From the NCBI RefSeq assembly GCF_900169305.1, contig NZ_FWDP01000002.1, positions 124,001 through 188,000 of the forward strand: DNA of 64,000 nucleotides, in the 5' to 3' direction. The notes under the pieces are model-generated. The model searched no databases. It saw only the letters and a program-made list of their open reading frames with translations, and was not told where the DNA came from. Source of the stretch: Marinilactibacillus piezotolerans. Its GTDB lineage: Bacteria; Bacillota; Bacilli; Lactobacillales; Carnobacteriaceae_A. The first letter of the stretch is position 1. Every line of letters begins with the position of its first letter. The position numbers and the translations under genes were made by a program. Positions 8,313-34,028 of this stretch are shown here, piece after piece.

Positions 8313-9137
8313 CTAGTCGTCTTCTTCTACGTATACTTTAGCTTCCTGGTCTTTACTTTCTACTTCTTCTTTCTTTTTCTTTTCTCGATCTTCTTTTTTC
8401 TTTTTCTTTTCTTCTTCGCTTAGTTCTTCATCTTCAGTGTCCTGTTTTTGCTCTTCTTCATCTTCTACATAGATTTTTGCTTCAGGATCTTTACTTTCAA
8501 TTTCCTCTTTATCCTTTTTACTCTCTTCATTGTTTGAGCCTTTATCTTGTTCTTTCTCATCAATACTGATCTTTGCTTCCGGGTCTTGATCTGGCTCTTC
8601 AGTATGGTCCTGTTCATGATGCTCTTGCTGTTTTTCCCCGGCATTCTCACCAGACTGGTTATCCTTTTTCACACTTACCTTATCGTTTGTATCAAGGGAA
8701 CTTCTATCATCTTTTTTGCCATCTTTCCCAGTGTCATCATCATCTCTGTGGTTATCGCTTCCTGTTTTCTCATTAGACTGATCATTATTCGATTTTTTAT
8801 CTTGTTGTTCATTCGTGTCATCGTCTTTTTCACCCAGTACCTGCTTTTTATATTCATGCTCTTTATACAGGAAAACATGGTGAATAATTCTAATGACAGG
8901 TCGCATTAGTAGGAAAAAACTGGCAAAAATATATAAATACATCCCCAGATCTTGAAGATTCGTAAAAGTTTGAATCAGACTACCAGTAAGATATAAACCA
9001 CCAGTGACCAGATCATTGGCCAGAGAAATAATCGTATAATAATTTTGAAAGTATACCCTGAATCCTCCAAGTTTAACAACGACATCTTCTTCTTTGGTTG
9101 GCTTCACTTCATGTGTTTTTCGTTCAATTTCTGGCAT
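8313..9137 (-). CDS. YrhK-domain membrane protein with acidic repeat tail
   Basis: Residues about 20-95 match the YrhK domain: GGFRVYFQNYYTIISLANDLVTG, then a second hydrophobic segment (about 65-88). From about residue 100 the protein is a highly charged Lys/Glu/Asp/Gln tail. Within it a short unit recurs with variations: TNDKVSVKKD, DPEAKISIDE, DPEAKIYVEDEE and, at the very end, DQEAKVYVEEDD. The repeat register is kept although the linkers diverge, which argues against random low complexity. Function is unknown. A small-RNA gene lies upstream on the same strand. Confidence 0.7.
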   Translation of the reverse strand: MPEIERKTHEVKPTKEEDVVVKLGGFRVYFQNYYTIISLANDLVTGGLYLTGSLIQTFTNLQDLGMYLYIFASFFLLMRPVIRIIHHVFLYKEHEYKKQVLGEKDDDTNEQQDKKSNNDQSNEKTGSDNHRDDDDTGKDGKKDDRSSLDTNDKVSVKKDNQSGENAGEKQQEHHEQDHTEEPDQDPEAKISIDEKEQDKGSNNEESKKDKEEIESKDPEAKIYVEDEEEQKQDTEDEELSEEEKKKKKEDREKKKKEEVESKDQEAKVYVEEDD

Positions 9138-9330
9138 ACTGATAGACTCCTTTATTGATACAATTTAACACTTAAAGATTATCATAATCTTAATAACTTT
9201 TCATATAATAAGCTTTCTAATACATATACAGAGAATTTAATGAGCTGATAATAGTTGAAAACGCATGTTATAATATTACCATTATAGTAAATCTGGTCTC
9301 ATTCCTGTTGAATCAATTGAAAAAGAAACC

Positions 9331-9501
9331 AAAAAAAGAGACAGAGAATAAATTCTCTGTCCCTTAAGCAACTTTAATAAAAAAGTGAGGATTGATGTTC
9401 ACAGCATCAGGGTCCTCCAATACCAACATCCTGTTGTGTGTCCGAAAACACTTGTATTGTGCTGACCGTTCACAATAGTGAACGAATCGACTCATCGCAT
9501 A
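9331..9501 (-). ncRNA. Predicted structured small RNA, about 170 nt, family not recognised
   Basis: A stand-alone transcript is predicted from a strong promoter (9508-9536) to an intrinsic terminator (9340-9361). Nothing in it codes for a protein I can support. In RNA order it can form: hairpin A, perfect 6-base arms (9468-9483); a three-way junction closed by CAATAC/GTATTG (9454-9459 with 9418-9423) holding two small hairpins (9438-9451, four-base-pair GUGU/ACAC; 9424-9436, CAAC/GTTG); hairpin C with outer GAGGA/TCCTC and inner TGATG/CATCA stems (9387-9417); then the terminator. CAGCA near 9461 could pair instead with TGCTG near 9402, so the structure may be bistable. I see no 4.5S or tmRNA hallmark; 6S RNA is possible but not shown. 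Confidence 0.65.
9340..9361 (-). terminator. Intrinsic terminator of the small RNA
   Basis: Arms GACAGAGAAT and ATTCTCTGTC (10 bases, perfect) have a 2-base loop. On the minus strand they are followed by a T-rich run corresponding to the A run at 9331-9337. Confidence 0.85.
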
Positions 9502-9507
9502 AACAGG

Positions 9508-9536
9508 ATTATATCATAAGTTATCTATGCATGCAA
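9508..9536 (-). promoter_or_regulatory. Strong extended -10 promoter for the small RNA
   Basis: On the minus strand, TTGCAT (9531-9536) is followed by a 17-base spacer and TATAAT (9508-9513), with TGA directly before the -10 (extended TGn). Transcription should begin near 9501. The promoter lies immediately after the stop of the GDSL hydrolase gene. Confidence 0.8.
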
Positions 9537-9541
9537 CATCT

Positions 9542-10177
9542 TTATTGTTCTACCTGATTCATCCAAGCTTTTTTAATGAATCCGTGACCGGCAACTGTAG
9601 GATGTACACCATCTTCGCCAGTGTAGTATTTAAACCCATGACTGATTCCCGCTGCATTAAACAGGCCATCTAACGGTATCAACTCTGTCTGATAGTCTCT
9701 GGCCATTTTACGGACTATCTGGATTCTAGGATCCAGTTCTCGGCGCCAGTTGATCCTGTCTTTTGGATATGGCAGGACAAAGGGCTCTATTAATATCACT
9801 CTGGCATCTGTTCTCTGGCTGAGTGATTTAAGTAAAAATCGATAGTCTTCTTCAAATTGATTTAACGCTTCTTCATCCAAGGCATCTGTTCTATCGATCT
9901 GATGACTTGTATCATTAATTCCGATCAAGATAGACACGATATCTGGATTCAAATTCAAGCAATCTTCTTCCCAACGGTTTTTCAAATCGATGACTCGGTC
10001 ACCAGAAATTCCTCTATTGTAAAAGGTTAATTGCTTTTGAGGGAAAGTCGCTTTCAGTTCTGAAGCAACCAGCAGTGGATAGCCTTGACCTAAATCTTCT
10101 GAGTGTGAACGATTTCTTCCTGCATCTGTAATACTATCTCCGATAAAGAGTATTTTTTCGTTTTGTTTAATTTTCAA
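9542..10177 (-). CDS. SGNH/GDSL-family hydrolase
   Basis: A 211-residue esterase or lipase-like hydrolase with the four SGNH blocks: FIGDSITD (Ser15 nucleophile), the Gly in GISGDRV, the Asn in IGINDT and the Asp/His pair in DGVHPTVAGH. No signal peptide, so it is cytoplasmic. The start codon is TTG at 10177, supported by CGAGGAGA just upstream. It lies 93 bases after the ROK kinase gene on the same strand, which hints at carbohydrate ester (for example acetyl) removal before phosphorylation, but this is inference. Confidence 0.9.
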   Translation of the reverse strand: MKIKQNEKILFIGDSITDAGRNRSHSEDLGQGYPLLVASELKATFPQKQLTFYNRGISGDRVIDLKNRWEEDCLNLNPDIVSILIGINDTSHQIDRTDALDEEALNQFEEDYRFLLKSLSQRTDARVILIEPFVLPYPKDRINWRRELDPRIQIVRKMARDYQTELIPLDGLFNAAGISHGFKYYTGEDGVHPTVAGHGFIKKAWMNQVEQ

Positions 10178-12967: not shown

Positions 12968-13351
12968 TTATTTTGCTTGGATAACTTCGATCTTGTATCC
13001 GTCTGGATCTTTAATGAAGAAATAATTTGCAGCTCCGTCAGATAAGCCTTTAAGCTCTGTGACATCGTAGTCAGTCTTTTTGTATTCTTCATGAGTCGCT
13101 TTCAGATCATCTACGCTGATCGCAATGTGACCGTATCCGTTACCAATCTCATATGGTTCTTCTTGGTCATAGTTGTACGTCAGTTCAACTTCATAGTCAT
13201 CACCAGGTAACGCTAGATAAACCAGTGTGAATTTATCATCTGGATAGTCAGATTTTTTAGTAATCTCCATTCCTAGAACATTTGTATAAAATTCGATTGA
13301 TTTGTCTAAGTCTTTCACGCGTACGCAAGTGTGTAATGCTTTTTTCGCCAT
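12968..13351 (-). CDS. gloA: Glyoxalase I-like VOC protein (lactoylglutathione lyase type)
   Basis: A 127-residue vicinal-oxygen-chelate protein with two beta-alpha-beta-beta-beta modules. Metal-ligand candidates fit glyoxalase I: His in LHTCVRVKDLDKSIEFY, Glu in YEVELTYNY, His in GYGHIAISVDD and Glu in DPDGYKIEVIQ. The family isomerises the hemithioacetal of methylglyoxal and glutathione. Presence of glutathione reductase elsewhere in the window supports a glutathione pool. AGGAGGAAGAATAC precedes the ATG. Confidence 0.88.
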   Translation of the reverse strand: MAKKALHTCVRVKDLDKSIEFYTNVLGMEITKKSDYPDDKFTLVYLALPGDDYEVELTYNYDQEEPYEIGNGYGHIAISVDDLKATHEEYKKTDYDVTELKGLSDGAANYFFIKDPDGYKIEVIQAK

Positions 13352-16311: not shown

Positions 16312-16395
16312 TGCACACGAGAGGACTCGAACCTCCACGGGGCTTCGCCCCACCAGCCCCTCAAGCTGGCGCGTCTACCATTCCGCCACGTATGC
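16312..16395 (-). tRNA. tRNA-Leu (anticodon GAG)
   Basis: The minus strand folds as a class II tRNA. The acceptor stem is GCATACG/CGTGTGC with discriminator A, the anticodon stem CCAGC/GCTGG holds loop TTGAGGG (anticodon GAG), there is a long variable arm (GGGGC-GAA-GCCCC type) and a TTCGAGTCC T-arm. The 3' CCA is not encoded. It reads CUC/CUU codons. Confidence 0.96.
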
Positions 16396-33956: not shown

Positions 33957-34028
33957 CCTCACCAGAGGGAATCGAACCCCCAGCTTGAGAACCGGAATCT
34001 CAGGTGTTATCCATTACACCATGGTGAG
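33957..34028 (-). tRNA. tRNA-Arg (anticodon CCG)
   Basis: Minus strand cloverleaf: acceptor CTCACCA/TGGTGAG with discriminator G, D-arm GTGTAATGGATAACAC, anticodon stem TGAGA/TCTCA with loop TTCCGGT (anticodon CCG) and T-arm GGGTTCGATTCCC type. It reads CGG. The CCA end is not encoded. Its own terminator follows. Confidence 0.95.

Follow-up and report, generated by a model that had tools for sequence, protein, structure and literature searches.

The window, that is, the whole 64,000-nucleotide (64-kb) stretch of Marinilactibacillus DNA that was analysed, encodes on its minus strand a small RNA of about 170 nt, present in a single copy in the source genome. An extended -10 promoter of its own precedes the RNA, which begins with a 5′ tail, folds into seven helices and ends in an intrinsic terminator; downstream lies a gene for a YrhK-like protein. 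The features of the locus are as follows:

9542-10177, minus: GDSL lipase/acylhydrolase (PF13472), the upstream neighbour, outside the RNA
9508-9536, minus: promoter, with -35 TTGCAT (9536-9531), a 17-nt spacer ending in TGA and an extended -10 TATAAT (9513-9508), read directly from the sequence
9331-9500, minus: small RNA, starting at the presumed +1 A (9500) and closing with the T run of the terminator, placed by promoter and terminator positions and by orthologues
9487-9500, minus: 5′ tail AUGCGAUGAGUCGA, better conserved order-wide than any other stretch (identical in 39 of 74 homologues, at most two differences in the rest)
9467-9484, minus: hairpin P1, CGUUCAC-UAUU-GUGAACG (compensatory changes in 4 of 7 pairs among close relatives)
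9460-9463, minus: closing helix P2, 5′ strand AGCA (98.4% paired in 16 relatives, with compensatory changes)
9419-9458, minus: three-way junction P3, stem AAUAC/GUAUU pairing 9458-9454 with 9423-9419 (covariation)
9451-9438 and 9436-9424, minus: arms P3a and P3b of the junction (all covary order-wide)
9428-9432, minus: P3b loop AGGAU (aligned as a C-x-GGA loop conserved across families)
9387-9417, minus: two-part hairpin P4, GAGG...CCUC with inner GAUG/CAUC (compensatory changes in 6 of 9 pairs)
9397-9403, minus: P4 loop UGUGAAC (UGUGAAC or UGUGGA in 71 of 74 homologues)
9372-9385, minus: small hairpin P5, CUUU/AAAG (95% paired, compensatory changes)
9367-9370, minus: closing helix P2, 3′ strand UGCU, pairing with 9463-9460 (covariation)
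9331-9365, minus: intrinsic terminator with a 13-bp stem, a 4-nt loop and a T run (shuffles give 0.1 per region)

The presumed +1 at 9500 is inferred and is good to about 2 nt, because the annotated end of S. pneumoniae srf-17 would lie 2 nt inside if the streptococcal locus L021 is that RNA. Seven nucleotides separate it from the TATAAT element. In each of the 74 homologues examined, a -10 element with at most two mismatches is spaced 4-9 nt from the conserved 5′ end, and a -35 element precedes the RNA in 71 of them. The promoter was not listed by a simple promoter scan, which passed over it because TTGCAT matches only three of six positions of the scan's -35 consensus. No ORF of at least 60 aa was found inside the small RNA. 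The initial annotation, made from the sequence alone, had described an RNA of about 170 nt with an extended -10 promoter, a strong intrinsic terminator and no supported ORF, and each of these features is confirmed; its description as a stand-alone structured small RNA is well supported. On the plus strand, a promoter-like site (CTGATA-18-TGn-TATAAT, 9245-9274) points towards the terminator and the small RNA and would transcribe both in antisense; it is a consensus match only, of a kind about as numerous as shuffles predict.

The promoter data also bear on the relation of the RNA to its neighbours. Only 41 nt separate the stop codon of the GDSL gene from the presumed start of the RNA downstream of it, and both are on the same strand, an arrangement in which the RNA could be a 3′ UTR product of the lipase gene and not an independent gene. 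However, a promoter stands ahead of the conserved 5′ end in every homologue, and many homologues have a different upstream gene or, in 9 of 74 cases, one on the opposite strand, leaving a 3′ UTR origin highly improbable. A role in cis, as leader or attenuator of the YrhK-like gene, was the one first predicted for asd and would fit the shared strand of RNA and gene, seen here and in 55 of the 71 loci with a downstream ORF. Nevertheless, the RNA is ended by its strong terminator, and the downstream genes fall into 41 clusters in these 71 loci, some on the other strand, a variety that is itself evidence against a cis role. Furthermore, MarS, the S. pyogenes RNA, does not depend on the neighbouring genes for its transcription (PMC5613026), and a leader function is very unlikely. 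The YrhK-like protein (8313-9137, minus) has a long acidic tail with PEAKIxVxEEE-type repeats; it measures 274 aa here and 162-190 aa in other Marinilactibacillus, with differing tail length.

Fold and covariation

The full RNA folds at -55.6 kcal/mol (z -4.0), and none of 200 dinucleotide shuffles is as good. When the terminator is left out, the advantage over shuffles shrinks to z -2.3, a level that 3 of 200 shuffles equal, so energy alone is modest evidence and the structural case is carried by conservation. In a DNA search, each of the four other Marinilactibacillus genomes yielded an orthologue (E 2.7e-44 to 6e-26), M. psychrotolerans (L002), M. piezotolerans (L003) and M. kalidii (L004) among them, as did most of the Alkalibacterium genomes searched. 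Some short hits in other genomes (L014-L016, L018-L020) align with the 3′ portion of the query; as they cover the terminator side only and lack the 5′ tail, they were judged to be due to chance.

Sixteen Marinilactibacillus and Alkalibacterium sequences were aligned by MAFFT, structure not being used in the aligning. Herein, the 37 proposed pairs were 90.7% formed, and 73 compensatory cells were counted, against a shuffled mean of 26 and at most 12 when slid. P3 and P3b were 100% paired, with compensatory changes. The covariance analysis called for by the initial annotation was thus run on these two genera, and the perfect hairpin, the three-way junction with two arms and the two-part hairpin that it had named are all present and covary in relatives, as does one further small hairpin beside them. 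In predicted ensembles, the first 9 nt of the 5′ tail and the P4 and P3b loops are mostly unpaired; over 55 homologues, the GGA of the P3b loop is on average 85-91% unpaired. The order-wide pattern of the tail is AUGCGAUGAG[U/C/G][C/U]GA.

A switch between hairpin P4 and a CAGCA/TGCTG pairing, also suggested at the outset, did not hold up. The five Marinilactibacillus sequences could form that pairing, but those of Alkalibacterium do not; over the alignment the pairing is present in only 67% of cells, because its first pair is mismatched in 11 of the 16 relatives, and it has zero compensatory change. The AGCA strand covaries instead with UGCU of P2, and a switch of this kind is barely credible. 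An alternative proposed by RNAalifold, pairing 5′ GCGAU with GUUGC, was rejected as well: it is nearly invariant in close relatives and so uninformative, and its GUUGC partner is absent in most other families, whereas P2 covaries both near home and order-wide, where all four of its pairs do so.

Relation to asd/MarS, Ref68 and 6S RNA

An Rfam scan at curated thresholds returned no match at the locus. In a permissive scan, two families matched over their full length, namely RF01732 (asd/MarS; positions 1-146, 43 bits, E 4.5e-7 in 401 nt) and RF02840 (Ref68/Lacto-3, of Enterococcus and other Lactobacillales; positions 1-124, 32.6 bits, E 1.7e-5). The first was described as the asd RNA motif (Weinberg 2010, PMC2864571) and studied as MarS (Pappesch 2017, PMC5613026). 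Neither score reaches its gathering cut-off (84 and 44 bits, respectively), so a routine Rfam scan misses the small RNA. The Rfam scan proposed as a check therefore gave a divided answer, blank at curated thresholds and positive for both families when permissive, and the label of an unrecognised family was wrong in substance: the RNA is a divergent homologue of RF01732 and RF02840, though below both cut-offs.

In common with asd/MarS, the RNA has the 5′ AUGCGAUGAGUCGA, P1, the P2 closing helix, P3 with its GGA-loop arm, P4 with a UGUGAAC loop, P5, a terminator, its own promoter and a single copy per genome. It differs from that family, beyond the low score, in its flanking genes and in the position of GGAGG, which lies in P4 here and not in P3. 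With Ref68 it shares the 5′ end, P1, the P3b loop, P4 and, in several loci, the same GDSL-ROK upstream genes. In Ref68, by contrast, the P1 region is longer and the loop reads UGUGGA; the Ref68 model of Rfam stops before the terminator.

The principal known alternative had been a 6S-like RNA, which is also a stand-alone structured RNA of similar size. However, 6S is one long interrupted hairpin and the present RNA is multibranched; the 6S model (RF00013) gave no match at the locus, either at gathering or at E 10, and the proper 6S gene of the genome lies on another contig (G000:C1:136357-136546, 69 bits, cut-off 46.4), which excludes this identity. In agreement with the earlier judgement that the RNA is not SRP RNA, tmRNA or a T-box, neither these nor other Rfam families matched at 9200-9600. 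Elsewhere in the window, Rfam models recognise a purine riboswitch (RF00167, 25683-25780, minus, 57.3 bits, above cut-off) and two tRNA genes (33957-34028 and 16312-16395, both minus).

Among 148 Lactobacillales genomes, RF01732 matched in 33 and RF02840 in 72, and the two models matched the same place in 16 (G000-G004, G023, G024, G038, G050, G072, G078, G099, G133, G139, G150 and G154). Model R1, for which sequences of Marinilactibacillus and Alkalibacterium alone were used, was run on 42 asd/Ref68-type loci brought in by the Rfam models; all but one were matched, 39 of the 41 at E<0.03, with nearly all matches starting at the same 5′ end. The weight of the tail was gauged with a further model built without its 14 nt (R3). 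This model still matched non-training Ref68-type and other loci (L069, 4e-11; L083, 2.9e-9; L056, 2.7e-7; L042, 2.1e-6), the last three of which represent three further families, and it matched a single streptococcal asd locus, weakly (L023, E 0.01). Since R3 finds Ref68-type loci without the tail and streptococcal loci only weakly, the link of the small RNA to Ref68-type loci is firm, and the link to asd rests on the full-length match of the asd model, the shared tail, the loops, the order of the fold and intermediate chains.

Altogether, RF01732 and RF02840 appear to be portions of a single RNA family that spans the order, with the small RNA as its Carnobacteriaceae branch. Both Rfam models and the model built here recognise the same loci; the 5′ tail, the P3b GGA loop and a P4 UGUGAAC or UGUGGA loop occur in one fold; the helices covary in the unfitted MAFFT alignment as well as in a fitted one; and homology extends beyond the tail for Ref68-type loci, for streptococcal loci only at E 0.01. 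That the two families belong together was not stated in the literature examined, and the clan column is blank in the Rfam output.

Gene order and spread across Lactobacillales

Gene order is conserved for Ref68-type loci and not for streptococcal loci. Upstream of the RNA in the window stand the GDSL lipase, a ROK-family kinase and, some 3.5 kb off, a glyoxalase (12968-13351). A GDSL homologue lies upstream of the RNA in 22 loci and is the syntenic anchor common to Ref68-type loci; GDSL and ROK homologues, about 48-60% identical, precede Ref68-type L051, L052 and L057, and GDSL also occurs at L056. Glyoxalase homologues (up to 73% identical) are found upstream of the RNA in L058-L060, where identity is 72%, and in L074, L082, L083 and L086. 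Coincidence is an unlikely source of this shared GDSL/ROK/glyoxalase order, which provides independent evidence for homology.

For the wider survey, 39 sequences were aligned by fitting to R1 (alignment A3), so that the alignment leans towards the R1 structure. In this alignment 93% of cells are paired, compensatory changes occur at 36 of 37 pairs, and the covariation score is 0.79, compared with 0.20 when shuffled and at most 0.10 when slid. The model built from A3 (R2), the E-values of which the tool itself describes as rough, scores 114.9 bits (E 9e-23) at the small RNA, its sole match in the window. Across the 148 Lactobacillales genomes, R2 has exactly one match each in 106, covering 37 of 48 genera. 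It also reaches genera lacking an RF01732 or RF02840 match (g17, g26 and g28, for example), and such homologues are likely unannotated; those in g17 (G034, G041, G061, G089, G096, G102, G122 and G129) are accompanied by others. In 349 genomes of the class, R2 gave 28 matches, all within Lactobacillales, and R1 gave two in 398 genomes of the phylum, a weak test given the few candidates scored per genome. Families f7 and f8 of the order have no R2 homologue in any genome listed, through either loss or too much divergence.

Possible mode of action

Beyond its identity, fold, homology, gene order and single copy, which the analysis shows, the RNA may be considered in the light of its streptococcal relatives. 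The best explanation, to which a probability of roughly 0.7 is assigned, is that it and its orthologues across Lactobacillales form one single-copy RNA, which takes in RF01732 and RF02840 and acts by base pairing in trans. By analogy, it would work as MarS does, with other targets. Transcribed alone from its own promoter and ending at its own terminator, the RNA would adopt a compact fold in which P1 is followed by a P2-closed multibranch domain holding P3/P3a/P3b, P4 and P5. Such a fold would expose three conserved elements, namely the 5′ tail, the P3b GGA loop and the P4 UGUGAAC loop. Pairing with mRNA leaders would most likely proceed via the P4 loop, perhaps also the 5′ tail, and would alter translation or stability. 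A genome search for sequences complementary to the 5′ tail showed no enrichment, with 12 matches against 9 in a backward control.

In S. pyogenes, MarS binds the mga 5′ UTR directly in vitro, as seen in gel shifts, and an 88-CC-89 change abolishes this binding (PMC5613026). Loss of MarS lowers the mga transcript without destabilising it (PMC5613026), so the mechanism is incomplete even in Streptococcus. The CC of GUGUGAACC falls in the P4 loop at positions 85-106 in 19 streptococcal homologues, at exactly 88-89 in two, and is usually the sole CC nearby, the mapping being made on these 19 homologues and not on the S. pyogenes MarS sequence. Given this placement, the known MarS-mga contact is most likely the P4 loop, conserved here as UGUGAAC. 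In the Marinilactibacillus RNA the second C of the contact, which follows GUGAAC, is replaced by A; since mga is moreover a streptococcal target, homology of targets is not implied, and mga itself is not an expected target. Elsewhere in the genus, the S. agalactiae Srn046/asd RNA was detected by Northern blot at about 200 nt, and its level falls in late stationary phase and at low pH (PMC4448216). For srf-17 (F38), the S. pneumoniae homologue, a fitness of 0 is listed for the nasopharynx (PMC9426450).

The main rival to mRNA base pairing is that the same conserved RNA chiefly meets a protein or the ribosome, its 5′ tail and Shine-Dalgarno (SD)-like GGA loop serving as a platform, or that it is partly translated. 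A fixed partner would easily explain why the tail and the two loops are kept order-wide while the stems change; SD-like GGAGG and AGGA stretches do occur in the RNA, and ribosome profiling in S. pneumoniae found a strong initiation signal, rio56, inside the asd RNA srf-17 (PMC9426450). However, the rio56 frame (UUG-AGC-AUA-AGG-AGG-UCA-UAA) is absent from the RNA of the window, where GGAGG lies in another helix, and the SD-like positions are not conserved. Considering also that MarS binds an mRNA directly, a protein or ribosome platform is rather unlikely. The streptococcal locus L021 (143 nt) holds the exact rio56 sequence TTGAGCATAAGGAGGTCATAA, overlapping the P3 stem, and the signal there could reflect either translation or ribosome contact. 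The 5′ tail itself reads 5′-AUG-CGA-UGA, which would amount to a leaderless start-Arg-stop were that A the first base transcribed. In a more speculative and distinctly improbable version, the RNA would be a near-universal, single-copy housekeeping RNA that contacts the ribosome or some conserved protein through its invariant tail and SD-like loop, mRNA targets such as mga being later, lineage-specific additions.

With base pairing in trans retained as the preferred reading, the small RNA connects a streptococcal virulence regulator with an enterococcal RNA, whose families had so far been handled apart. If these are one RNA, present once per genome in most of the order, results from one genus can guide work in all, harmless food and marine bacteria included. 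The parts that are invariant order-wide, namely the 5′ tail, the GGA loop and the UGUGAAC loop, are where a common partner should be sought, in addition to the single target known from streptococci.
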